From contig NZ_FNSQ01000005.1 of NCBI RefSeq assembly GCF_900105205.1, positions 1,922,001-1,986,000 of the forward strand: a stretch of DNA of 64,000 bases, given 5' to 3'. Positions 2 to 13,186 of the stretch are shown here, in pieces. Positions within the stretch are counted from its first letter, which is position 1; every line of letters begins with the position of its first letter. The position numbers and the translations under genes are program-made. The notes under the pieces were generated by a model. It ran no database searches. It was not told where the DNA came from and saw only the letters and a list, made by a program, of their open reading frames with translations. Origin of the DNA: Microbacterium hydrocarbonoxydans. GTDB taxonomy: Bacteria; Actinomycetota; Actinomycetes; Actinomycetales; Microbacteriaceae.

Positions 2-3000
2 GTCGTGAACACTGCCGTCGCGACGGGCACAGCTCCGGCCGACGTCGATGTCGCGTCGAGCGACGCCGAGGTGACGACGGAGCTCGCGCCGGCGACTCCA
101 GATCTCACCGCGACGAAGCGAGGTGCACTGGCCGCCGGTGCGACCGGCCGCGCCGGGGACATCGCCGAGTTCCGCTTCTCGGTCGTCAACACCGGCGACG
201 TGACCATCAGCGAAGTGACGTTCGACGACGCTCTCGCCGGCCTGAGCCCCCTGGCGATCACCTGGCCGGATGCGGCGGCACCCGGCATCCTCGCCCCCGG
301 GGCCGAAGCGACGGCGACGGCCAGCTATACCCTGACGCAGGCGGATGTCGACGCCGGATCCGTCGCGAACGCCGTCACCGTCACCGGCACGCCGGTCCGC
401 GGCGCCCTCGACCCCGCGACCGCGGTCGCCACCATCGGCATCACCCCGGGAGCCGCGTTGTCTGCGGTGAAGTCGGGGGTGTTGGCTGCGGGTGGTGTGG
501 GTGTGGTGGGTGACACGGTGGAGTATGTGGTGGTGGTGACGAACACGGGGAATGTGACGGTCACTGGTGGGGTGTTGGTGGATCCGATGGTGGGTCTGTA
601 TGACGTGTCGATCGTGTGGCCGGATGCGGGTGTTCCTGGTCGTGTGGGTGTGGGGGAGCAGGCGGTGGGTCGGGGGAAGTATGACCTGACTCAGGCGGAT
701 GTGGATCGTGGGTTCGTGGAGAACACGGCGTCGGTGGCGGCGTCGGCGCCTGGTGGGGTGCGGGTGTCTGCGGATACGAATACGGTGCGGGTGAATACGG
801 TGTTGCCGGCTGCGGGGTTGGCGGTGTCGAAGTCGGGTGTGTTGGTCGGTGGTGGTGGTGTCGGTGATGTGGTGTCGTATGAGTTCGGGGTGACGAATAC
901 GGGCAATGTGACGGTGGGCGATGTGGTGCTCTCTGATGCGTTGCCGGGTGTGGTGTTGTCGGGTGTGGTGTGGCCGGATGCGGGTGCGCCGGGTGTGATC
1001 GCTCCGGGGGAGACGGCGACGGCGTCGGGTGAGTATGTGTTGTCGCAGGCGGATGTGGATGCGGGTCGGGTGGTGAACTCGGCGTCGGCGTCTGGTGTGG
1101 CGGTGCGGGGTGGGCCGGTGTCTGCGGTGTCGGCGGAGAGTGTGGTGGTGACGGACGCGGCGGCGCCGGTGGTGTCGGTGGTGAATTCGGGGGTGTTGGC
1201 TCCGGGTGCTGCGGGTCGTGCGGGTGATGTGGTGACGTTCACGTATGTGTTGACCAACGAGGGCAATGTGTCGTTGTCGGGTGTGGTGTTGGCGGATGCG
1301 TTGGGTGGGGTGTCTGCGCCGTCGTATGTGTGGGAGGGTGCGGCGGGTGTGTTGGTGCCTGGGCAGTCGGTCACGGCGACGGCGTCGTATGTGCTGACGC
1401 AGGCGGATGTGGATGCGGGTGGGGTGACCAGTGTGGTCACCGGTACCGGCACACCACCCACCGGCGCACCGGTGTCGGCGGCGGCCCCAGCGACCGTGGC
1501 GATCACCGCCGCGCCAGAGCTCATCGTGACGAAGGACGACGCGGCCACCGGCGGTGCCGTGGGCGACAGCGTCGAGTACTCCTTCACGATCGAGAACCGC
1601 GGGAACGTGAGTCTGTCCGGCGTGGTGCTGAGCGACACCCTCGCGGGCCTGAGTACCCCGTCGGTCTCCTGGCCGGGAACGACCGGTGTCCTCACGCCCG
1701 GACAGATCGCCACGGCGACCGCGACCTACACCATCACGCAGGCGGACGTCGATGAGGGTCGCATCGAGAACACGGCGACCGCGAGGGCGACGATCCCGGG
1801 CGGCACCGGCATCCAGGCCTCTTCCGACACCGTCGTCACCGAGCTCGACGAGGCGGCACCCGCCGTCGTCACCACGAAGTCCGCGCGCCTCGCAGACGGC
1901 GCGAGCGGAGCGGTCGGCGACGCGATCGAGTACACGGTCACGGTGCGCAACTCCGGCAACGTCACCCTGTCGGACGTGGGTATCGTCGACGACCTCGAGA
2001 ACCTCTCGGACATCGCGGTCGTGTGGCCGGGAGCGGCAGGTGTGCTCGCACCCACGCAGACCCTCGTCGGCACGGCGCGGTACGTCATCACGCAGGAGGA
2101 CGTCGACCGAGGCGCCGTCTCGAACGTGGCCGTCGGCTCCGGTACCGACCCGTCGGGGACGGACGTCGACGATCCGTCCGCACAGGTCGTCGTCGACACC
2201 GCCGGCGCGGCACCCGCAGCGACCGTGAGCAAGGCCGGTGCGCTCGAGCCCGGCGCGACCGGGCGCGCGGGAGATCTCGTGCGCTTCACCTTCCGGGTGG
2301 TCAACACGGGCAATGTCACGCTCTCCAACGTCACGCTCGTCGACCCGCTCGAGGGGCTCTCCGAGATCGAGGTCGCCTGGCCGGCGGCCGACGGTGTGCT
2401 GGCCCCCGGCGCTGCCGCGGAGGCGACCGCCGAGTACGCCCTCACGCAGGCGGATGTCGACCGAGGACAGCTCGACAACACCGTGACGCTGTCGGCGACG
2501 GCTCCGGACGGCGCGGTCATCGAGCGCACGGCCGACGCCGTCGTGCCGATCACCGAGGCGGCGGAGCTGACGACCGTGAAGAGCGGTGAGCTGCTCGAAC
2601 CGGGCATCGGCGCGGTGGGAGATGTGATCGAGTACCGGCTCGTCGTCACGAACACCGGAAACGTGACGGTGCAGGAGGGGCGACTGATCGACCGTCTGGC
2701 CGGACTCTCGCTGCCCGAGATCGCATGGCCGGGCCCCGAGGGGGAGCTGCTGGTCGGTGACACCGTCGTCGGCGTCGCACGGTACACGCTCACGCAGGCC
2801 GACATCGATCGCGGCTTCGTCCGCAACATCGCCGGGGTCGAGGCCGTCACCGAGCAGGGGACGGATGTCGTGGCCGACTCGAACCCGGTCGTCATCAACA
2901 CGGTGCAGCCCGCCGCCGCCCTGACCGTCGTCAAGGACGGGGTCATCGACGGCGACGGAGGCGCGGGCAGTGCAGTCGACTACACATTCCGCATCACCAA

Positions 3001-6000
3001 CACCGGCAACGTGACGGTCAGTGCCATCACTCTCGCCGACCCGATGCCCGGGCTGAGCGTTCCGCAGATCACCTGGCCCGGCATCGCCGGCGTCCTCGCG
3101 CCGGGACAGTCGGCGACCGCCACCGCCGGATACGTCATCACGCAGGACGACGTGGATGCGGGATCGATCGCCAATGCCGCGACCGCGAGCGGATCCTCGC
3201 GCGGCGGCCCCGTCACGAGTCCGGCGGGCATCGAGACGGTCGAGACCCAGGGCATCCAGGCTTCCATCGATGTGCGCAAGACCGCCGAGTTCGAGCCGGG
3301 GGCGACCGGTGTCGCTGGAGACGTCGTGAACTGGGCCTACTCGCTGCAGAACACGAGCAATGTGACTCTGACCGGGGTCTCGCTCGCCGATCGCCTGACC
3401 GACTCGTCTGCGCCGACCTACGTCTGGCCGGACCCGGCCCGTCCCGGCGTCCTTCTTCCCGGACAGACGGTGACCGCCGTCTCCGCCTACGTGCTCACGC
3501 AGGCCGACGTCGATCGGGGCACGATATCGAGCGCGGTCGATGGCGTGGGCATGCCGCCCCGCGGAGCCGATGTCACCGGATCGGCGACGGCATCCGTCGA
3601 GATCGCGGCACGACCGGGCATCTCGGCATCGAAGTCCGGAGTCGTCGACGGCGCAGGCGATGTCGGCGACCGCATCGACTACACGTTCGGCATCACCAAT
3701 ACGGGCAACGTGACCCTGACCCTCGTCGATCTCATCGATGCTCTGGTCGGCGTCAGCGCACCGACGTTCGACTGGCCGGGCGAGCCGGGCATCCTGCTTC
3801 CCGGTGAGACCGTCGAGGCGGCAGCCGAGTACACGATCACGCAGGCGGACGTCGACCGCGGCACGGTGACGAACATCGCCACCGCGAGCGGCAAACCGCC
3901 GGTCGGCGACACCATCACGGCCAGCACGCCCCCGACGAACACGACGGTCGCCGCCGCAGCGCCCGAGCTGCGCACAGAGAAGACGGGCGTCGCTCGCGGT
4001 GACGGCGCAGTCGGCGACATCATCGACTACGCGTTCACGATCGAGAACACCGGCAATGTGACCGTGACGGCGATCGGTCTCGCGGATCCGCTGCCAGGGC
4101 TCTCGGTGCCGGACGTGCGGTGGCCGGGTGAGCCGGGCATTCTCGCCCCGGGCCAGATCGCGACCGCGACGGCCAGCTACGCCATCGTCCAGGCGGACGT
4201 CGACGCGGGCGAGGTCGTGAACGTCGCGACGGCAGCGGGCACGACCCCTGCCGGTACCGCGGTGGAAGACGCGAGCGATCCGGCGCGTACTCCGACCATC
4301 GCCGCTGCCGCCGCCGTCGCGATCGACAAGACCGGTGCGCTCGCGCCGGGCTCGACGGGCCAGGTCGGCGACCTCGTGCGGTTCGCCTTCACGATCTCGA
4401 ACACGGGCAACCAGACGCTCACCGACGTGACGCTCACCGACCGGCTCGTAGGGCTCAGCGACATCGACGTGGTGTGGCCGAGCGACGATCCCGCGTCCGT
4501 CGGGGTGCTGCCGGTCGGCTCTCAGGCTCGCGGCACTGCCACGTATACGCTCACCCAGGCTGACATCGACGCGGGCGCGGTCGCGAACGCCGTCGAGGTC
4601 GACGCCGCCACTCCGTCCGGCGCCCCAGTGGACGCATCCGATGCATCGACCGTCGAGATCCCGAGGACTCCCGCGTTGTCTGCGGTGAAGTCGGGGGTGT
4701 TGGCTGCGGGTGGTGTGGGTGTGGTGGGTGACACGGTGGAGTATGTGGTGGTGGTGACGAACACGGGGAATGTGACGGTCACTGGTGGGGTGTTGGTGGA
4801 TCCGATGGTGGGTCTGTATGACGTGTCGATCGTGTGGCCGGATGCGGGTGTTCCTGGTCGTGTGGGTGTGGGGGAGCAGGCGGTGGGTCGGGGGAAGTAT
4901 GACCTGACTCAGGCGGATGTGGATCGTGGGTTCGTGGAGAACACGGCGTCGGTGGCGGCGTCGGCGCCTGGTGGGGTGCGGGTGTCTGCGGATACGAATA
5001 CGGTGCGGGTGAATACGGTGTTGCCGGCTGCGGGGTTGGCGGTGTCGAAGTCGGGTGTGTTGGTCGGTGGTGGTGGTGTCGGTGATGTGGTGTCGTATGA
5101 GTTCGGGGTGACGAATACGGGCAATGTGACGGTGGGCGATGTGGTGCTCTCTGATGCGTTGCCGGGTGTGGTGTTGTCGGGTGTGGTGTGGCCGGATGCG
5201 GGTGCGCCGGGTGTGATCGCTCCGGGGGAGACGGCGACGGCGTCGGGTGAGTATGTGTTGTCGCAGGCGGATGTGGATGCGGGTCGGGTGGTGAACACGG
5301 CGTCGGCGTCTGGTGTGGCGGTGCGGGGTGGGCCGGTGTCTGCGGTGTCGGCGGAGAGTGTGGTGGTGACGGACGCGGCGGCGCCGGTGGTGTCGGTGGT
5401 GAATTCGGGGGTGTTGGCTCCGGGTGCTGCGGGTCGTGCGGGTGATGTGGTGACGTTCACGTATGTGTTGACCAACGAGGGCAATGTGTCGTTGTCGGGT
5501 GTGGTGTTGGCGGATGCGTTGGGTGGGGTGTCTGCGCCGTCGTATGTGTGGGAGGGTGCGGCGGGTGTGTTGGTGCCTGGGCAGTCGGTCACGGCGACGG
5601 CGTCGTATGTGCTGACGCAGGCGGATGTGGATGCGGGTGGGGTGACCAGTGTGGTCACCGGTACCGGCACACCACCCACCGGCGCACCGGCGACCGCCGT
5701 CGCCCCGGCGACGGTCTCGCTGGCGCCCGCGCCCGGCCTCGTCTTCACGAAGACCGCAGCCCTCGACACTCCGGGAGCGAACGCCGCGGGCGACGGAGTC
5801 ACCTTCGGCTTCCGTATCGAGAACACCGGCACGGTGACGCTGTCGGGCGTCGCCGTCACCGATGACCTCGCCGGCATCGGACCGCTCACGATCGACTGGC
5901 CGGGAGCGGTCGGCACGCTGGCGCCGGGGCAGATCGCTCGCGGAACCGCGGCGTACGACATCAGCCAGGAGGATGTCGATCGCGGCTCGGTGCAGAACAC

Positions 6001-8338
6001 GGCATCCGTGCGGGCGATGACCCCCGCCGGCAGCCTGCTGACGAGCCGCTCGACGATCGAGCCGCTCAGCACAGCAGACCACGCGCCGTCGATCCAGACG
6101 GTCAAGGGCGGCAGCTACGTCAGTGGCACGGGCGGTGTGGGCAGCATCATCGAGTACACCTTCGACATCACCAACACGGGCAACGTCACGCTGCGCCTGA
6201 TCCGACTGCAGGACGACCTCGAAGGGCTCGGCATCCCGCAGCTGGACTTCCCGTCGGTGACCGGCATCCTGCCGCCTGGCGGCACAGCGACCGGCGTCGC
6301 GCGCTATACGGTGACGCAGGCCGACGTGGATGCCGGATCGATCACGAACGTGGCCACCTCGTTCGGGACCTCGCCGCGCGGCGTCGTCGTCTCGGACAGT
6401 TCGGCGCCGTTCACGATCGCCACCGACAGTCCCACGAATCCGGAGCAGGCGATCCGCACCACCCAGACCGCGGAGCTCGCCCCGGGTGACATCGGAGTCC
6501 TCGGCGACGCGATCGACTACACCTTCACGATCGAGAACACCGGCAACAGGACGTTGACCGGCGTGACGCTGAGCAACACGCTCACGGGTCTCGGTGGATT
6601 CGTCTACACCTGGCCGGATGCCGCGAACCCCGGGCGACTGCTGCCGGGGCAGACCGTGACGATCACGGCTTCGCATCCCGTCACGCAGGCGGAGGTCGAC
6701 GCGGGGACCGTGCGCAACGTCGCGACCGGCAGCGGCACGCCGCCGACAGGTGCCGCGGTGACGCATTCGACGCCCATGACCATCGTCCCGCTCGCGGGCG
6801 GGACCGGGTCGCTCGAGGTGTCGAAGTCGGGCACGCGCCTCGGTGACGGCAGCGTCGGCACAGAGATCCGATACGACTTCGTGGTGCGCAACACCGGCAC
6901 TCTCACCCTGTCGTCGGTCGCACTGACGGACGCCCTCGAGGGGCTCTCGGAGATCTCGTACGGCGACTGGCCGACCGCGGAGGGCACGCTCGCACCGGGG
7001 CAGTCCGTCACCGCGTCGGCGACTTACACGCTTCAGCAGTCCGACATCGACGAGGGCGCCGTCCGCAACATCGCGGCTGCCAGCGCCCGCACGCCCGGCG
7101 GCGACGGGATCGCCGTCGAGTCGCCGGAATCCGTCGTGACGACGATCGGGGCCGCACCCGCGATCGATGTCGAGAAGCAGCAGGTGCTCGCGGATGGTGC
7201 CACCGGACGCCCCGGCGACGAGGTCGAGTACGCGTTCACGGTGACCAACTCCGGCAACGTCACGCTGCGCGGCGTCTCGCTCGCCGACGCGCAGACCGGT
7301 CTCACCGGCCTCGAGATCACGTGGCCCGGAGAGGTCGGCGTGCTCGCCCCCGGGCAGACCGCGTCGGCGATCGCGCGGTACACGCTGACCCGGGCGGATG
7401 TCGATGCGGGCCGGCTCCAGTCCCTCGCGACGACGACGGGCATTGCGGACGGCACGGTCGTCCGTGACGAGGACGCCGCAGAGACGCTGATCGCCGCGGC
7501 TCCTGCTCTGACCCTGGAGAAGACCGCCGAGCTCACCGGTGCCGCACAGCAGGGCGGCGGCATCCGCTACCTCGTCACCGCGACGAACACCGGCAACGTC
7601 ACGCTCACGGATGTCGCTGTGACCGACGAGCTCGCCGGTCTCGGCTCGCCGAGCACGGCATGGCCCGGTACGCCAGGCGTCCTCGCAGCAGGCGAGAGCG
7701 TCACCGTGCGCGCCGACTACGTCATCACGTCGGCCGACGTCGTGCGCGAGCGCGTCGACAACACCGCATCCGTGACCGGGACCGCGCCGGGAGGTGCGAC
7801 CGTCGAGGCATCCGATTCCGTCCGCGTGGACGTGCCGAACGAGCCGAGCATCCACCTCAGCATGAACATCACGGTGAAGGACGGCCAGCAGGGCTATGCC
7901 GGCGACACTCTGATCTTCCGATACACCGCCACGAACACCGGGACATCGTCGCTCACGGGCGTCCGGATCGTCGACCCGTACCCCGGCCTCTCCGCACTCA
8001 CCTACACCTGGCCCGGCGAGCCGGGAGTGCTGCTCCCCGGTCAGAGCGTGACGGCGGTCGCGAGCGTCGTGATCACCGCGGCCATGGAGGGCACCGTGAT
8101 AACGTCGCGTGCCGTGGTGACCAGTGTCGAGGCGGAGTCGGGCGTGCAGGTGCTCGATGTGGCCTCGGACGCCGTCGATCTCCCCGCTCCTGAACCGACC
8201 GGCATCCTGCCGTTCACGGGCGGTGGCGATCCGCTGCCCCTGGTGGCCGGATCCGCCGCGCTGCTCCTCGCCGGTCTCGTGCTGATGCTCCTCGCACGCC
8301 GCCGCCGTGCGGAGCGCACCTCGAACCTCTTCTCCTAG
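2..8338 (+). CDS. Giant LPXTG-anchored repeat surface protein (5' end outside window)
   Basis: The visible 2,777 residues are about 23 tandem copies of a unit of roughly 115 aa resembling the DUF11/DUF7507 beta-sandwich repeats of surface proteins. Each unit has an NTGNVT-like strand, a WPG/WPD turn, a VLAPGQ-like segment and a final Y.LTQADVD.G motif. The tail is a cell-wall sorting signal: LPFTG at nt 8207-8221, a hydrophobic helix, then RRRR. A sortase should therefore link it to peptidoglycan, probably as an adhesin or stalk; that role is inferred. The first in-window GTG (nt 5) lies inside a repeat, so it is not the true start; the gene begins before the window. Two blocks of three repeats (453-1472 and 4671-5690) are almost identical and codon-atypical. 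The 80-aa-plus ORFs on the other strand are shadows. Confidence 0.9.
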   Translation, partial: VVNTAVATGTAPADVDVASSDAEVTTELAPATPDLTATKRGALAAGATGRAGDIAEFRFSVVNTGDVTISEVTFDDALAGLSPLAITWPDAAAPGILAPGAEATATASYTLTQADVDAGSVANAVTVTGTPVRGALDPATAVATIGITPGAALSAVKSGVLAAGGVGVVGDTVEYVVVVTNTGNVTVTGGVLVDPMVGLYDVSIVWPDAGVPGRVGVGEQAVGRGKYDLTQADVDRGFVENTASVAASAPGGVRVSADTNTVRVNTVLPAAGLAVSKSGVLVGGGGVGDVVSYEFGVTNTGNVTVGDVVLSDALPGVVLSGVVWPDAGAPGVIAPGETATASGEYVLSQADVDAGRVVNSASASGVAVRGGPVSAVSAESVVVTDAAAPVVSVVNSGVLAPGAAGRAGDVVTFTYVLTNEGNVSLSGVVLADALGGVSAPSYVWEGAAGVLVPGQSVTATASYVLTQADVDAGGVTSVVTGTGTPPTGAPVSAAAPATVAITAAPELIVTKDDAATGGAVGDSVEYSFTIENRGNVSLSGVVLSDTLAGLSTPSVSWPGTTGVLTPGQIATATATYTITQADVDEGRIENTATARATIPGGTGIQASSDTVVTELDEAAPAVVTTKSARLADGASGAVGDAIEYTVTVRNSGNVTLSDVGIVDDLENLSDIAVVWPGAAGVLAPTQTLVGTARYVITQEDVDRGAVSNVAVGSGTDPSGTDVDDPSAQVVVDTAGAAPAATVSKAGALEPGATGRAGDLVRFTFRVVNTGNVTLSNVTLVDPLEGLSEIEVAWPAADGVLAPGAAAEATAEYALTQADVDRGQLDNTVTLSATAPDGAVIERTADAVVPITEAAELTTVKSGELLEPGIGAVGDVIEYRLVVTNTGNVTVQEGRLIDRLAGLSLPEIAWPGPEGELLVGDTVVGVARYTLTQADIDRGFVRNIAGVEAVTEQGTDVVADSNPVVINTVQPAAALTVVKDGVIDGDGGAGSAVDYTFRITNTGNVTVSAITLADPMPGLSVPQITWPGIAGVLAPGQSATATAGYVITQDDVDAGSIANAATASGSSRGGPVTSPAGIETVETQGIQASIDVRKTAEFEPGATGVAGDVVNWAYSLQNTSNVTLTGVSLADRLTDSSAPTYVWPDPARPGVLLPGQTVTAVSAYVLTQADVDRGTISSAVDGVGMPPRGADVTGSATASVEIAARPGISASKSGVVDGAGDVGDRIDYTFGITNTGNVTLTLVDLIDALVGVSAPTFDWPGEPGILLPGETVEAAAEYTITQADVDRGTVTNIATASGKPPVGDTITASTPPTNTTVAAAAPELRTEKTGVARGDGAVGDIIDYAFTIENTGNVTVTAIGLADPLPGLSVPDVRWPGEPGILAPGQIATATASYAIVQADVDAGEVVNVATAAGTTPAGTAVEDASDPARTPTIAAAAAVAIDKTGALAPGSTGQVGDLVRFAFTISNTGNQTLTDVTLTDRLVGLSDIDVVWPSDDPASVGVLPVGSQARGTATYTLTQADIDAGAVANAVEVDAATPSGAPVDASDASTVEIPRTPALSAVKSGVLAAGGVGVVGDTVEYVVVVTNTGNVTVTGGVLVDPMVGLYDVSIVWPDAGVPGRVGVGEQAVGRGKYDLTQADVDRGFVENTASVAASAPGGVRVSADTNTVRVNTVLPAAGLAVSKSGVLVGGGGVGDVVSYEFGVTNTGNVTVGDVVLSDALPGVVLSGVVWPDAGAPGVIAPGETATASGEYVLSQADVDAGRVVNTASASGVAVRGGPVSAVSAESVVVTDAAAPVVSVVNSGVLAPGAAGRAGDVVTFTYVLTNEGNVSLSGVVLADALGGVSAPSYVWEGAAGVLVPGQSVTATASYVLTQADVDAGGVTSVVTGTGTPPTGAPATAVAPATVSLAPAPGLVFTKTAALDTPGANAAGDGVTFGFRIENTGTVTLSGVAVTDDLAGIGPLTIDWPGAVGTLAPGQIARGTAAYDISQEDVDRGSVQNTASVRAMTPAGSLLTSRSTIEPLSTADHAPSIQTVKGGSYVSGTGGVGSIIEYTFDITNTGNVTLRLIRLQDDLEGLGIPQLDFPSVTGILPPGGTATGVARYTVTQADVDAGSITNVATSFGTSPRGVVVSDSSAPFTIATDSPTNPEQAIRTTQTAELAPGDIGVLGDAIDYTFTIENTGNRTLTGVTLSNTLTGLGGFVYTWPDAANPGRLLPGQTVTITASHPVTQAEVDAGTVRNVATGSGTPPTGAAVTHSTPMTIVPLAGGTGSLEVSKSGTRLGDGSVGTEIRYDFVVRNTGTLTLSSVALTDALEGLSEISYGDWPTAEGTLAPGQSVTASATYTLQQSDIDEGAVRNIAAASARTPGGDGIAVESPESVVTTIGAAPAIDVEKQQVLADGATGRPGDEVEYAFTVTNSGNVTLRGVSLADAQTGLTGLEITWPGEVGVLAPGQTASAIARYTLTRADVDAGRLQSLATTTGIADGTVVRDEDAAETLIAAAPALTLEKTAELTGAAQQGGGIRYLVTATNTGNVTLTDVAVTDELAGLGSPSTAWPGTPGVLAAGESVTVRADYVITSADVVRERVDNTASVTGTAPGGATVEASDSVRVDVPNEPSIHLSMNITVKDGQQGYAGDTLIFRYTATNTGTSSLTGVRIVDPYPGLSALTYTWPGEPGVLLPGQSVTAVASVVITAAMEGTVITSRAVVTSVEAESGVQVLDVASDAVDLPAPEPTGILPFTGGGDPLPLVAGSAALLLAGLVLMLLARRRRAERTSNLFS
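453..1472 (+). repeat. 1,020-bp internal block, copy 1 (three repeat units)
   Basis: This block matches nt 4671-5690 base for base, except at nt 1079 (T here, A in the other copy; Ser versus Thr). It is 340 codons, about three repeat units, and stays in frame. Inside, Val is mostly GTG, Leu TTG, Gly GGG/GGT and Asn often AAT. Outside, GTC, CTC/CTG, GGC and AAC dominate. Identity begins at the linker CCGCGTTG and ends just after GGCGCACCGG. Confidence 0.95.
4671..5690 (+). repeat. 1,020-bp internal block, copy 2 (three repeat units)
   Basis: Second copy of the block at 453-1472, offset by exactly 4,218 bp, with one mismatch (nt 5297). Flanking repeats differ from those around copy 1, so identity stops sharply at both ends. 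Such long identity beside divergent neighbours points to recent duplication or gene conversion. The repeat is a hotspot for slippage, recombination or assembly collapse. Confidence 0.95.
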
Positions 8339-8362
8339 CGATCTGCACTGAAAGGCGACACG

Positions 8363-8842
8363 ATGCTGAACCTCCGTTCCTCCCTCCCCACCTCCTCCGG
8401 CCGCACGACGGCCAGAGGAGCGATCGTGGCCGGGATCGCCGTGACGCTCGGTCTCGTGCTCGCCGGATGCACCGACTCGGCACCGGAACCGAAGCCCACA
8501 CCGACCGCCACGGAGCAGGCCGAGGCCGGGATCACCGACATCCAGGACACCCCCGGCTCGGGAGAGGGCCTCGAGGGCGCCTTGGCGGATGCCGAGGTCA
8601 AGACCTGCGAGCTCGCCGGCGACCACTGGGAGGTCGAGGGCACCGTGACCAACTCGAGCGAGGCTGCGGCGTCGTACCGCATCTACGTCTCGCTGCTCAC
8701 CGAGGGCGGGGACACGCGGTCGTTGACTCAGGTCGACGTCGACCCGATCGACGCCGGGGAGAGCGCCGACTGGAAGACGTCGGTCGACGTCCAGGACGAG
8801 GCGCTGGACTGCGTGCTGCGCGTCGAGCGCTACGCCTCCTGA
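8363..8842 (+). CDS. Secreted lipoprotein, FxLYD-like
   Basis: The 159-aa product starts with basic residues and a hydrophobic stretch ending in the lipobox LAGC (Cys36), so it should be lipidated and held on the outer face of the membrane. A Pro/Thr/Glu linker follows. The C-terminal part (about residues 75-157) has the pattern of FxLYD-type domains, with the phrase WEVEGTVTNSS and two cysteines (in KTCEL and LDCVL) that could form a disulfide. It begins 24 bp after the giant surface protein, with AAAGG upstream of ATG, so the two are probably co-transcribed. A shared role at the cell surface is inferred; no function is known. Confidence 0.85.
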   Translation: MLNLRSSLPTSSGRTTARGAIVAGIAVTLGLVLAGCTDSAPEPKPTPTATEQAEAGITDIQDTPGSGEGLEGALADAEVKTCELAGDHWEVEGTVTNSSEAAASYRIYVSLLTEGGDTRSLTQVDVDPIDAGESADWKTSVDVQDEALDCVLRVERYAS

Positions 8843-8872
8843 CTCCTGTCGGTCGGCCCTTCGGGCGCGCGG

Positions 8873-10219
8873 TCAGGACTGCGTGGCTGTCCGCTTGACG
8901 ACCTCGTAGGCGGCGAGCGCCGCCTTGCGGGTCGCCGCCAGATCCACGATGGGCTCGGTCGGCGCATCGGCGGCCCACTGGGAGATGTAGAGGCTCTGTG
9001 GGTCGAACTTCTTCGCCTGCAGCTCGGGGTTGAACACCCGGAAGTACGGTGCGGCATCCGCGCCCGACCCCGCCACCCACTGCCAGTTGAACGGATTGCT
9101 CGCGCCGTCCGCGTCGACGAGCGTGTCCCAGAACCACTCCTCGCCGCGCCGCCAGTCGATCAGCAGGTTCTTGACGAGGAAGGATGCCGTCACCATGCGC
9201 ACCCGGTTGTGCATGAAGCCGGTGTGCCACAGTTCGCGCATGCCGGCATCGACGAGCGGGATGCCCGTCGATCCCCGCTGCCACGCCTCGAGATGAGAGG
9301 GACTCAGCCGCGGCCACGGGAAGGCGTCGTACTGCCGACGGAGGTTCTTCGTGGCGATGTCAGGCGCGTGGAAGGTGGTGTGCCAGGCGAACTCGCGCCA
9401 GCCGAGCTCCGAAAGGAACCCCGCGGTGCCGTGCGCTTCCACGGCCTCGTGCCACACGGTGAACGGGCTCAGCTCGCCCCAGCGCAGGCGTGGGGAGAGG
9501 AGCGAGGTCGCGCCGGCCGAGGGTTCGTCGCGTGCGCGGTCGTAGGCCGGGACGTCGTCCTGCAGGAAGGTGCGCAGCCGCGCGCGTGCGGCAGGTTCCC
9601 CCGGTTCCCAGGTCTCGCGCAGACCGCCGGTCCAGTCGGGGCGGGTGGGCAGCAGACCCCAGTCGTCCAGCTCGTCGGAGGACGGAGGCGGGGTCAGGCC
9701 GTCGAGTGCTCGCGGAGCAGGGAGCGGCGCGCGCGGGGTCGGCAGAGCCAGGCACGCCCGCCAGAACGGCGTGAACACCGAGAAGTGCGTGCCGCTCCCG
9801 GTCGTGACGGTCCACGGCTCGTGCAGCAGCGAGGCCTGGAAGGAGGCGACCTCGACGCCCTCCTCGCGGAGCGAGGATTTCAGGCCAGCATCGATGTCTC
9901 GCTCCGCGCCTCCGTACCGTCGGTTCCAGTACACGGCTCCCGCACCGATGTCGGCGACCGTCTGACTGACGACGCGCTCGGCGGGGCCGCGGCGCAGGGT
10001 GAGGGATCCGCCGAGCTCCTTCACCCGCTCGCGCAGTGATGCCAGCGAGTGGTGCAGCCACCAGCGTGCCGCTCCGCCGTGCGGTCGGATGCCGGGGGAC
10101 TCCTCGTCGAGGACATAGAGGAGCGCGACCGGCTCACCGCGATCCATGGCAGCCCTCAGCGCGGGGTTGTCGGCGAGTCTGAGATCGTCGCGGAGCCAGA
10201 CGAGTGAGGGGGAGGCCAT
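8873..10219 (-). CDS. phr: Deoxyribodipyrimidine photolyase
   Basis: Light-driven repair of UV-induced pyrimidine dimers. The 448-aa product has the usual length. Its N-terminal antenna-binding Rossmann domain (about 1-165) begins LVWLRDDLRLADNP. The FAD domain (about 250-430) shows ELGWREFAWH, HNRVRMVTASFLVKN, DWRRGEEWFWDTL and NPFNWQWVAGSG, which carry the tryptophans used in flavin photoreduction. The ORF is open further upstream, but family similarity begins just after the ATG at 10219. GGAGG lies only one base before that ATG, so initiation may be unusual. A cryptochrome role cannot be excluded from sequence alone. It converges on the lipoprotein gene with 30 bp between stops. Confidence 0.93.
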   Translation of the reverse strand: MASPSLVWLRDDLRLADNPALRAAMDRGEPVALLYVLDEESPGIRPHGGAARWWLHHSLASLRERVKELGGSLTLRRGPAERVVSQTVADIGAGAVYWNRRYGGAERDIDAGLKSSLREEGVEVASFQASLLHEPWTVTTGSGTHFSVFTPFWRACLALPTPRAPLPAPRALDGLTPPPSSDELDDWGLLPTRPDWTGGLRETWEPGEPAARARLRTFLQDDVPAYDRARDEPSAGATSLLSPRLRWGELSPFTVWHEAVEAHGTAGFLSELGWREFAWHTTFHAPDIATKNLRRQYDAFPWPRLSPSHLEAWQRGSTGIPLVDAGMRELWHTGFMHNRVRMVTASFLVKNLLIDWRRGEEWFWDTLVDADGASNPFNWQWVAGSGADAAPYFRVFNPELQAKKFDPQSLYISQWAADAPTEPIVDLAATRKAALAAYEVVKRTATQS

Positions 10220-10296
10220 GCCTCCATTCTCGTGCCCGGTACGACGTGCGGCTCGGGACGCGCCCGGCGGCCGATGGGAACGGTCGCAGCGAGCGC

Positions 10297-10725
10297 TCAG
10301 CGCGAGCGGCGTCGCAAGCGACGGCGCAGAGGACCGCGGTGTGCCGGCTCGGCAGTGCACCACAGCGCCCAGAGCACGAGGACCGGCTGCAGGAAGAGGC
10401 GTCCGAACCGCCGAGCCTCCGTGTCGAGGCCCGGCGTCGACCGGTGCGTCCGCCACTGGTGGACGTTCCCGGGGAGGACCGCGACGAAGAACGCGGCGGT
10501 GGCGATGCCGATCCGTCGGCGCTCTCGCGGCAGCGCCAGCAGCCCCGCAGCCAGAGCGACCTCTGCGGCCCCGGATGCGATCACGATCGCGTCCTTGTCC
10601 AGTCGAGTGATTCTGGTCGCCCAGTCGGGAACGACGACCCTGAACCCTCGCGTGCTCACGAAGTGGACGACGCCGATGGCGCCCAGCGCGAGGGCGAGTA
10701 TCCAACGGGCGGCTGCTCTGACCAT
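10297..10725 (-). CDS. DoxX-like small membrane protein
   Basis: A 142-aa integral membrane protein with about four predicted helices. The pattern GNVHQW followed by a Pro-Gly-Leu-Asp segment and a last helix (FLQPVLVLWALW) is typical of DoxX-like proteins of actinobacteria. The C-terminus is a short Arg-rich tail facing the cytoplasm by the positive-inside rule. Its function is unknown; distant relatives are linked to thiosulfate oxidation or redox stress. It lies upstream of phr on the same strand (77 bp gap) and may be co-transcribed with it. Confidence 0.75.
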   Translation of the reverse strand: MVRAAARWILALALGAIGVVHFVSTRGFRVVVPDWATRITRLDKDAIVIASGAAEVALAAGLLALPRERRRIGIATAAFFVAVLPGNVHQWRTHRSTPGLDTEARRFGRLFLQPVLVLWALWCTAEPAHRGPLRRRLRRRSR

Positions 10726-10779
10726 CCGCTCACGCTACCGTGATCGCCCCGACACCCGACGCTTTGCCACACTGGGTGC

Positions 10780-11139
10780 ATGACCGTCCTGCGCATCAGC
10801 ATCCTCTTCGTGCTCGCCGCCGTCGCCGAGATCGGGGGCGCCTGGTTGATCTGGCAGGCCGTCAAGGAGAACAGGGGCTGGGTGTTCGCAGTGCTCGGCG
10901 TCATGGCGCTCGGGGCCTACGGCTTCCTCGCGGCCCTGCAGCCGGACGCCAACTTCGGTCGTGTGCTCGCCTCCTACGGCGGCGTGTTCATCGCCGGGTC
11001 CCTCGCATGGGGGATCATCGTCGACGGCTTCAAGCCCACGATCTGGGACTGGGTCGGCTCCGCGATCGCGCTGGTCGGCGCGGCCATCATCATCCTGGCT
11101 CCGACGTCGACGGACGCCACGGCGGAGACCGCGCTGTAG
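10780..11139 (+). CDS. YnfA/UPF0060 family membrane protein
   Basis: The 119-aa product has four hydrophobic helices and matches the UPF0060 family: [19 protein letters not shown] at the N-terminus, then [24 protein letters not shown] and [12 protein letters not shown]. The family resembles small-multidrug-resistance transporters, and a multidrug efflux role has been proposed for E. coli YnfA. The substrate here is unknown. ATG at 10780 fits the family start. The gene is divergent from the DoxX-like gene, with 54 bp between the two starts. Confidence 0.9.
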
Positions 11140-11197
11140 CGGTCAGCGGCCCCCGGGCATGCGAGTAGCCTAGATCCAGACCCAGATGGAGTGTGCA

Positions 11198-13186
11198 GTG
11201 CCTGAAAATGCTCAGCCGAAAGACGGCTTCGCCCTGTTCTCTGACCGTTCCGTCGTCGCGATGCGCGTCGGCGGCGTCCTCAAGGACCTCGCCGCGACAG
11301 TGACCGATGCCGACGACGTCGAGCCCGTCACCATCGACAGCCCCGACGGGCTGAACATCCTCCGCCACTCGGCCGCGCACGTGCTCGCGCAGGCGGTGCA
11401 GCGCATCAACCCACAGGCGAACCTCGGCATCGGCCCGCCCATCACCGACGGGTTCTACTACGACTTCGGCGTCGACACCCCGTTCACGCCCGAGGACATC
11501 AAGGCCATCACGAAGGAGATGCAGCGCATCATCCGCGAGGGGCAGCGCTTCGTGCGCCGCGTCGTCACCGACGACGAGGCACGGGCCGAGCTCGCCGACG
11601 AGCCGTTCAAGCTCGAGCTCATCGGACTCAAGGGCGGCAAGGAAGCCGCTGAGGGCGCATCGGTCGAGGTCGGCGAGGGCGAGCTGACGATCTACGACAA
11701 CACGACCCGCGACGGCGAGGTCGTCTGGAAGGACCTCTGCCGCGGGCCGCACCTGCCCAACACCCGCATGATCGGCAACGGCTGGGACCTCACCCGCATC
11801 GCCGCCGCCTACTGGCGCGGCAGTGAGAAGAACCCGCAGCTGCAGCGCATCTACGGCACGGCATGGCCGTCGAAGGACGAGCTGCGCGAGTACCAGCACC
11901 GCCTCGAGGAGGCCGCCAAGCGCGACCACCGCCGCCTCGGCAAGGAGCTCGACCTGTTCTCCTTCCCCGAGGAGATCGGCTCCGGTCTCTCGGTCTGGCA
12001 CCCGCGCGGCGGTATCGTGCGCGGCGAGATGGAGCAGCACGCCCGCAAGCGCCACATCGCCGGCGGCTACACCTACGTGTACACCCCGCACATCTCGAAG
12101 GAAGACCTCTTCCTCACCTCGAACCACCTCGTCACCTACAAGGAGGGCATGTACCCGCCGATCGTCATGGACGAAGAACGCGACGACGAGGGCAACATCA
12201 CCAAGCAGGGCCAGGACTACTACCTGAAGCCGATGAACTGCCCGATGCACATCCTGATCTACAAGGAGCGCGCGCGCAGCTACCGCGATCTGCCCCTGCG
12301 GTTCGCGGAGAACGGCACGGTATACCGCAACGAGCTGTCGGGTGCGCTGCACGGCCTCACCCGCGTGCGCGGCTTCACCCAGGACGACTCGCACCTCTTC
12401 GTCACCCCCGACCAGCTCGAGGGCGAGGTCGCGAAGGTCCTGGAGTTCATCCTCTCGATGCTCCGCGACTTCGGCCTCACCGACTTCGAGCTCGAGCTGT
12501 CGATGAAGGACGACGAGAAGTCGAAGTGGATCGGCTCCGACGAGTTCTGGGAGTCCTCGACGGATGCGCTGCGGCGCGTCGCCGTGGCATCCGGTCTGAA
12601 GCTCACCGAGGTGCCGGGAGAGGCCGCGTTCTACGGTCCGAAGATCGACCTGAAGACGCGCGACGCGATCGGCCGCACCTGGCAGCTGTCGACCGTGCAG
12701 GTCGACCCGAACCTGCCCGAGCGCTTCGAGCTCGAGTACATGGACAAGGACGGGCAGAAGAAGCGGCCGATCATGATCCATCGCGCTCTGTTCGGGTCGA
12801 TCGAGCGGTTCTTCGCCATCCTCCTCGAGCACTACGCGGGTGACTTCCCGGTCTGGCTCTCGCCCGTCCAGGTCGTCGGCATCCCCGTCGCCGACGAGTT
12901 CGCCGACTACCTCGGCGAGGTCGTCGACGCCCTGCGCAGCCACGGAGTCCGTGCCGAGCTCGACACCTCCGACGACCGGATGCAGAAGAAGATCCGGACG
13001 CACACCACCGGCAAGGTGCCGCTGCTGCTGATCGCGGGGGAGAAGGACCGCGACGCGGGCACCGTCTCGTTCCGCTACCGCGACGGCACGCAGGAGAACG
13101 GCGTGCCGATCGCCGACGCGGTGGCGCGCATCCGTGCCGCGATCGACGCGCACACCCTCGTGCAGACAGCAGGGGACCTGGCGTGA
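11198..13186 (+). CDS. thrS: Threonine--tRNA ligase
   Basis: Charges tRNA-Thr in the cytoplasm. The 662-aa product has a TGS-like N-terminus, the editing-domain zinc/catalytic motif H57-SAA-H61, class II core motifs (zinc Cys348 in NCPMH, the [11 protein letters not shown] region, and [13 protein letters not shown] near residue 526) and a C-terminal anticodon-binding domain. I chose GTG 11198 because GGAG lies 6 bp upstream. An in-frame ATG at 11186 would add four residues but has no good ribosome-binding site. The TGA overlaps the GTG of the HIT gene, so the two are translationally coupled. Confidence 0.95.

Follow-up and report, generated by a model that had tools for sequence, protein, structure and literature searches.

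Among the described systems closest to the one considered here, the vls cassettes for antigenic variation in Lyme Borrelia have a mean GC skew of 0.52, which was interpreted by its authors as being under strong selection (PMC11499132), and the vls coding strand carries 27 G-runs per kb (PMC3585125). Surface-protein stalks contain the DUF7507 domain, now called CLIPPER_2, for which isopeptide bonds are predicted (PMC12617251), and RecA monomers dissociate most slowly from TGG repeats (PMC3763553). Here we describe a giant surface-protein gene of Microbacterium hydrocarbonoxydans, located in a 64,000-nucleotide stretch of contig NZ_FNSQ01000005.1 (the window), in which a block of 1,020 bp occurs twice, in frame and nearly identical, with a coding strand rich in G and T. 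Comparison with relatives supported long-term concerted evolution of the two copies by gene conversion, as judged from their sequences, and we consider it somewhat probable that they form a conversion-maintained repeat pair whose G/T-rich coding strand itself promotes recombination, a step that we infer from the composition.

Copy 1 (453..1472, forward strand) comprises 339 codons and three DUF7507-type units, and copy 2 (4671..5690, same strand) follows 4,218 bp downstream in frame. An earlier note on this DNA had reported that they differ by one base, and this was confirmed: position 1079 is T, in a serine codon, and position 5297 is A, in a threonine codon. The three other species compared carry the copy 2 base, so the copy 1 base is the derived state. 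The pair is the sole direct repeat with shared exact 30-mers in the window, and the remaining seven matches to the block in the genome were at most 189 bp long and 68–93% identical (40 of 114 candidates scored). A triplet of paralogous units between the copies (2567..3568, forward strand) has 52–53% protein identity to the block, and is neither G/T-rich nor homogenised. A short match at C5:3349672 was rejected as a G-rich repeat outside the genes read there, unrelated to the block; the surrounding stretch (L012 4201-4860, C5:3349200-3349860) is a G-rich minisatellite just after an ABC-transporter-ATPase-like gene.

Codon use in the block departs from that of its surroundings, as the note had also proposed. 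The coding strand of the block has a G+T content of 0.721, a GC skew of +0.46 and an AT skew of -0.40, while 1,982 overlapping 1,020-bp windows of the same stretch outside the blocks averaged 0.493 G+T (sd 0.022, maximum 0.549). This keto bias is strongest at third codon positions, which were G.65, T.25, C.09 and A.01 in the block versus G.37, C.51, T.07 and A.05 in the rest of the gene (window -4600 to 8335). The G/T-rich part extends over approximately 453-1410 in copy 1, and the skew thus ends about 60 bp short of the right end of the identical tract, with a G+T of 0.48 in bin 960-1019. Amino acid content is altered as well, with more Val (22.7% v 11.3% in the rest of the gene) and less Ile (0.6% v 4.2%) and Thr (8.0% v 14.5%), and the block uses the codons TTG, AAT and TAT, which are uncommon in the remainder of the gene. 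These shifts could indicate that composition was selected for expression or for the protein, with uncommon codons setting translation speed, a C-poor mRNA remaining unfolded, or Val/Gly-rich units being wanted, and with the identity of the copies as a secondary matter. Protein selection alone is insufficient, however, as the shift persists at fourfold sites after amino-acid standardisation (92% G/T in the block versus 46% expected), and the predicted folding of the coding-strand RNA is only a little weaker (-0.36 v -0.44 per nt). An expression reason also predicts neither the link between skew and homogenisation across species nor the lack of skew in the 73 tract-free frames, both described below, and we regard this explanation as unlikely.

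To locate the block among relatives, we searched 366 Microbacterium genomes at E<=1e-40, scoring two candidates per genome, and 12 of them, including the genome under study, matched. When named genomes were scanned at the protein level, five loci were recovered, in M. hydrocarbonoxydans P30 and strains Leaf320 and Leaf159. Both copies were present on one contig in six species, namely our own, M. hydrocarbonoxydans P30 (L042/G519) and four further genomes, G127, G179, G518 and G544 (genomes and fetched regions are given by our labels), with an in-frame spacing of 4,218 or 4,221 bp; in G518 the ungapped offset was 4,217, yet the gapped alignment had no indel in the block. A different spacing was observed elsewhere, in L053 (G001, approximately 5450-8930) and L052 (G172, 6815-9041), where near-identical pairs lie about 2,100 bp apart, which is one higher-order repeat period, versus 4,220. 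Contigs of G186, G559 (Leaf320), G586 and G572 stop inside the block match or no more than 20 bases from it, and G564 has one weak match inside a contig. In G560 (Leaf159) a small contig carries parts of the block at each of its ends, and on the large contig the left flank of copy 1 is connected to the right flank of copy 2 across N gaps in the block. At this junction (L046 16500-17600, with L045) the piece between the copies is thus a separate small contig; an assembly gap is the likely explanation, although some cells of the culture may truly have lost the segment. Because several draft assemblies break or gap in the block, the pair could be an artefact of assembly with a single real copy. 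We consider this scarcely credible, since five other species hold both copies on one contig, four of these (G127, G179, G518 and G544) are single-contig assemblies, and the flanks of the two copies are distinct.

The copies are much more similar within genomes than between them. They differ at 1 of 1,020 positions in our genome and in L042, at 2 in the first 850 in G127, at 3 in the first 715 in G179 and at 5 aligned columns in G518, and not at all over positions 272-849 in G544; in the draft G186 they match at 298/298 bp where both are visible. Over the first 640 bp, a cut that only approximates a unit border, copy 1 and copy 2 were 0.997–0.998 identical within each of the four fully compared species, while the same region differed by 4–14% (86–96% identical) between these species. 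The flanks demonstrated the opposite pattern: the copy 1 and copy 2 places were 0.54–0.60 identical within a genome, and the same place was 0.72–0.90 identical between the four species; the flanks are orthologous by position. In our genome, L042, G127 and G179 the identical tract starts within one and the same codon, while its right edge is variable, at about 1,020 in our genome and L042, at 848 with a further patch in G127 and at 714 in G179; in G544 identity is limited to 272-849. Gene conversion between the copies, which the note had also suggested, accounts for this pattern, and constraint alone does not, since the block differs between species.

These results do not sustain the view that the block came in from some other gene or organism as a cassette that was lately duplicated or spread, a proposal prompted by codon use that departs from the flanks and by the near-identity of the copies. 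The copies themselves, however, are shared at the same in-frame spacing by six species that have diverged from one another in the block. Of the result that the note had named as refuting its proposal, one half was seen: sister strains do have the same codon pattern, but their copies are again near-identical rather than normally diverged. A donor search at E<=1e-12 in 299 genomes of the family, including our own, found matches in only three genomes of other genera, the best of 97 bp at 82% (G253) and the longest of 396 bp at 65% (G321), and none of 50,697 phage or 72,556 plasmid records matched the block. Within G/T-ending codons, Val, Ala, Pro, Thr and Arg show the ratio of G to T found elsewhere in the gene (Fisher p 0.09 to 1), with small shifts toward T for Gly and Ser (p 0.02); against 12 other long open reading frames of the window there were slight differences for Val (p 0.03), Gly (0.04) and Ser (0.03). 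As the choice between G and T follows that of its own gene for most amino acids (five of seven), the block for the most part resembles host codon choice minus C and A, and not the style of another organism. A foreign origin is therefore very improbable in our view. The conjectured role in surface variation is not borne out; within a genome the process removes differences.

The G/T composition appears to be maintained. At fourfold sites the orthologous flanks were 0.44–0.52 identical in five of six species pairs (0.64–0.68 for L042/G179), and the main change was between C and G, with G<->T accounting for 6–11%. In the first 640 bp of the block, fourfold sites were 0.78–0.90 identical across the six pairs, 54–84% of the changes were between G and T, and C occupied 1–6% of the fourfold sites in the four species, except in the first third of G127 (16%). 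Given the extensive turnover of fourfold sites in the flanks, a foreign style would have been expected to fade, yet the block remains G/T-rich. We also polarised seven young differences between copies within genomes by means of three other species: four went from G/T to A/C, two went in the reverse direction and one was unclear. It thus seems, from these substitutions, that ordinary mutation erodes the G/T state and that something restores it, and the composition looks maintained rather than mutational, presumably by selection or by a bias in conversion. A mutational origin, by deamination of an exposed strand, predicts young changes toward G/T, mainly T for C; it was rejected because four of the seven changes go the other way and G, not T, occupies most of the C positions. 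Replication strand was also rejected. With the strand inferred from the dnaA position and the terminus assumed to lie opposite, the gene is roughly on the leading strand in our genome and in G179, G185, G159, G180 and G148, and near the terminus in G127, and such an orientation cannot explain a sharp block of 1 kb.

Homogenisation and composition tend to coincide by position. The six species differ in homogenisation in nine 60-bp bins, and in eight of these the homogenised species had the higher G+T (mean difference 0.096). The pattern is clearest over the last 360 bp, where our copies are identical and G/T-rich, and those of G179 are neither. We extended this comparison to 88 fetched regions, from which 89 long open frames passed filters for this class of gene, based on base composition and motifs; the regions were chosen from search matches and are therefore non-random, parameters were settled while viewing the same data, and a broken gene can count twice. 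Near-identical internal tracts were present in 16 of the 89 frames, and in 14 of these, among them L150 and L162 of other genera, the tracts leaned to G/T at fourfold sites once amino acid use was standardised. Mask-shift tests were strong for G185, G172, G428 and G180. The most pronounced case besides our own is G185, which has a 351-bp tandem unit (fourfold G/T 0.91 vs 0.50). Among the 73 frames without tracts, the maximum G+T in 240 bp was 0.67, in L161 (G253), and only one other frame, in G161, reached 0.62; both are truncated where a contig begins. Two contigs of G253 agree at 55/55 bp, between the terminal part of one and a stretch near the beginning of the other, and each of these stretches is rich in G/T.

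L103 (G185; minus-strand gene, coding-strand 8090-12367) is a different giant gene with near-identical 351-bp tandem units and fourfold sites that are 80% G and 9% C, and is apparently an independent case of the same signature. L115 (G001, 7224-9980) is a counter-example, with near-identical 354-bp units and a C-rich coding strand (fourfold C 0.59). Other genera of Microbacteriaceae also have DUF7507 proteins, encoded by open frames that reach about 6,170 codons (L125-L138), and in these fetched stretches we found neither near-identical internal repeats nor a G/T-rich block.

On our reading, the blocks are direct, in-frame repeat cassettes within one chromosomal gene, one copy being repeatedly overwritten by the other through gene conversion, such that, as the comparison showed, the copies remain near-identical within a genome and both drift between species. 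The comparison also supports the view that an excess of G and T over C and A is upheld on the coding strand while mutation works against it. The likeliest use of this composition would be to promote pairing, with TGG/GTG and G-runs on the coding strand and a complementary strand of little predicted structure, and RecA filaments, R-loops or G-rich intermediates could be stabilised, raising the rate of conversion. TGG occurs at 57 per kb in the coding strand of the block (v 10), and the coding strand carries 44 G-runs of at least three per kb and the opposite strand 1, compared to 17 and 14 in the flanks. The predicted folding energy of the complementary strand, calculated with RNA parameters, is -0.13 v -0.46 per nt. 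The likely outcome would be a pair of identical stalk segments, with the occasional deletion or addition, in frame, of a segment of 1,406 residues, and the gain to the cell might lie in either the identical segments or the change in stalk length. More broadly, a C-poor, G/T-rich coding strand could serve the repeat-protein genes of bacteria in general as a cis-acting recombination code, written by selection through synonymous codons and conservative residue swaps where repeats stay interchangeable, with host-like codons returning elsewhere; in that case the same principle would have been put to use independently in the Borrelia vls skew and in the Microbacterium blocks. We offer this generalisation tentatively, as the less probable of our own proposals.

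A number of observations weigh against a role of the composition in recombination. The step from composition to recombination is an inference from sequence. The seven young changes are a small number, and of the nine bins, four depend solely on G544 and another two solely on G179. Among the shifted frames, six to seven of the 14 are one orthologous group, and when loci were counted once, and assumed to be independent, 8 of 10 were shifted, a count that is suggestive only. Two tract-bearing frames had no G/T shift (G001b, -0.16; first frame of G185, -0.01), and mask-shift tests were weak for G142, G316, G159 and G001a. Relatives are not all homogenised throughout: in Leaf159 the copies agree at 63/63 positions beside the gap and then differ at 50/466, and at 52/255 on the left, suggesting that at most the middle of the block was homogenised. 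No change in length between the copies was seen among the six species, in which spacing is constant. GT-rich islands of E. coli are reportedly attributed to codon usage. The exact E. coli Chi octamer is lacking in the block, and RecA nucleation is not favoured on TG-rich DNA (PMC3763553).

The last 360 bp of L042 are fully homogenised although their G+T is only 0.37–0.68, and because this stretch was homogenised without full G/T richness, conversion does not need the skew. This also bears on a simpler explanation, in which ordinary conversion acts on long near-identical copies, and the G/T strand is a relic, or is kept by biased mismatch repair, and has no role in recombination. Conversion on other less skewed DNA is consistent with it (the tracts of G180 have a GC skew of 0.00 and those of G001b of -0.27), as are several homogenised tracts that are only mildly shifted to G/T. 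The turnover of the flanks argues against a relic, and the coincidence of skew and homogenisation by position across species, also in loci such as G185 and G428, is not expected if composition plays no part. Biased repair would need strand polarity, and we know of none in bacteria. We therefore regard this explanation as possible but doubtful, and retain a recombination-promoting coding strand as our working interpretation.

The blocks are part of a gene whose 3' portion occupies 2..8338 of the window on the forward strand, in a frame open from C5:1917238 to C5:1930338, and a further 5' part begins at about C5:1912124 in another reading frame. The frame shifts at C5:1917,240-1,917,350, to the left of the window, and this change may be either a sequencing error or a true break; G127 and L042 have a single open frame of about 6,075 codons, and G179 has a frame shift at another place. 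An LPFTG motif (8207-8221), which we take to be a sortase signal, is followed by a hydrophobic stretch and a positive tail (8207..8335 in all, forward strand). DUF7507 stretches number 23 in window 2-8338 and 12 in the 5' part, with whole-protein scores far above the Pfam cut-off, indicating that the gene probably encodes a giant DUF7507/CLIPPER_2 cell-wall stalk adhesin, an ordinary member of the family. K6, D43, N90 and K126, D161, N208 are invariant across nine aligned triplets, and were assigned as Lys-Asp-Asn isopeptide positions by the approximate spacing given in PMC12617251; unit 3 of the block is without the isopeptide Lys. The predicted model of the block comprises three beta-rich modules (approximately residues 2-114, 122-232 and 240-333; mean pLDDT 90.3), in agreement with the three repeat units that had been described for each copy. 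Structure comparison gave PDB matches that were largely multi-domain beta proteins with low whole-chain TM-scores, and a profile search of solved structures found none. Downstream of the gene are genes for a DNA photolyase and a class II tRNA synthetase, and the setting is ordinary chromosomal.

Concerted evolution and skewed conversion cassettes are each already known, and we did not find their combination, two copies in one actinomycete adhesin gene with a G/T style of host codons, in the openly licensed literature. The Microbacterium pair is a second, apparently unrelated case in which strand-specific composition is tied to gene conversion in a surface-protein gene, and it differs from that of Borrelia in genus, in protein and in having two copies in one gene versus an array. 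The proposal derived from vls, that composition itself drives recombination, becomes testable by synonymous recoding. Locally odd codon use need not signal foreign DNA, and draft assemblies break at such repeats.

Comparison with vls reveals both likeness and difference. Both are surface-protein genes with conversion between repeats, a G-skewed coding strand (0.52 in vls, 0.46 in the Microbacterium block), G-runs almost only on that strand (27 per kb and 44 per kb), and a composition that is unlike the host and conserved between species. In Microbacterium, however, the copies share one open frame, without a silent cassette array or a separate expression site, and in six species conversion has made them alike, in the whole block or a part of it, instead of diversifying them. 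The AT skew is -0.40 in the block versus about 0.05 in two Borrelia strains, the protein is unrelated, and no immune role is known for the block. The TGG/GTG-rich coding strand is also similar to the TG-rich DNA preferred by E. coli RecA and to Chi-associated GT-rich islands, in that it is expected to hold stable RecA filaments (PMC3763553); the Microbacterium blocks differ in being sharply bounded, about 1 kb long, tied to a repeat pair rather than to genome-wide codon use, without an exact Chi octamer, and known here from sequence alone. The gene resembles DUF7507/DUF11 (CLIPPER_2/CLIPPER) fibrillar adhesin stalks in its tandem DUF7507 units, Lys-Asp-Asn isopeptide positions and sorting-type C-terminus (PMC12617251), to which the homogenised G/T-rich pair is an extra feature. 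The giant surface-protein genes of Apilactobacillus kunkeei likewise encode very large proteins shaped by intragenic recombination (PMC12863079), but there the exchange is between strains or species, whereas in Microbacterium conversion occurs between two copies in one gene with strand-specific composition.

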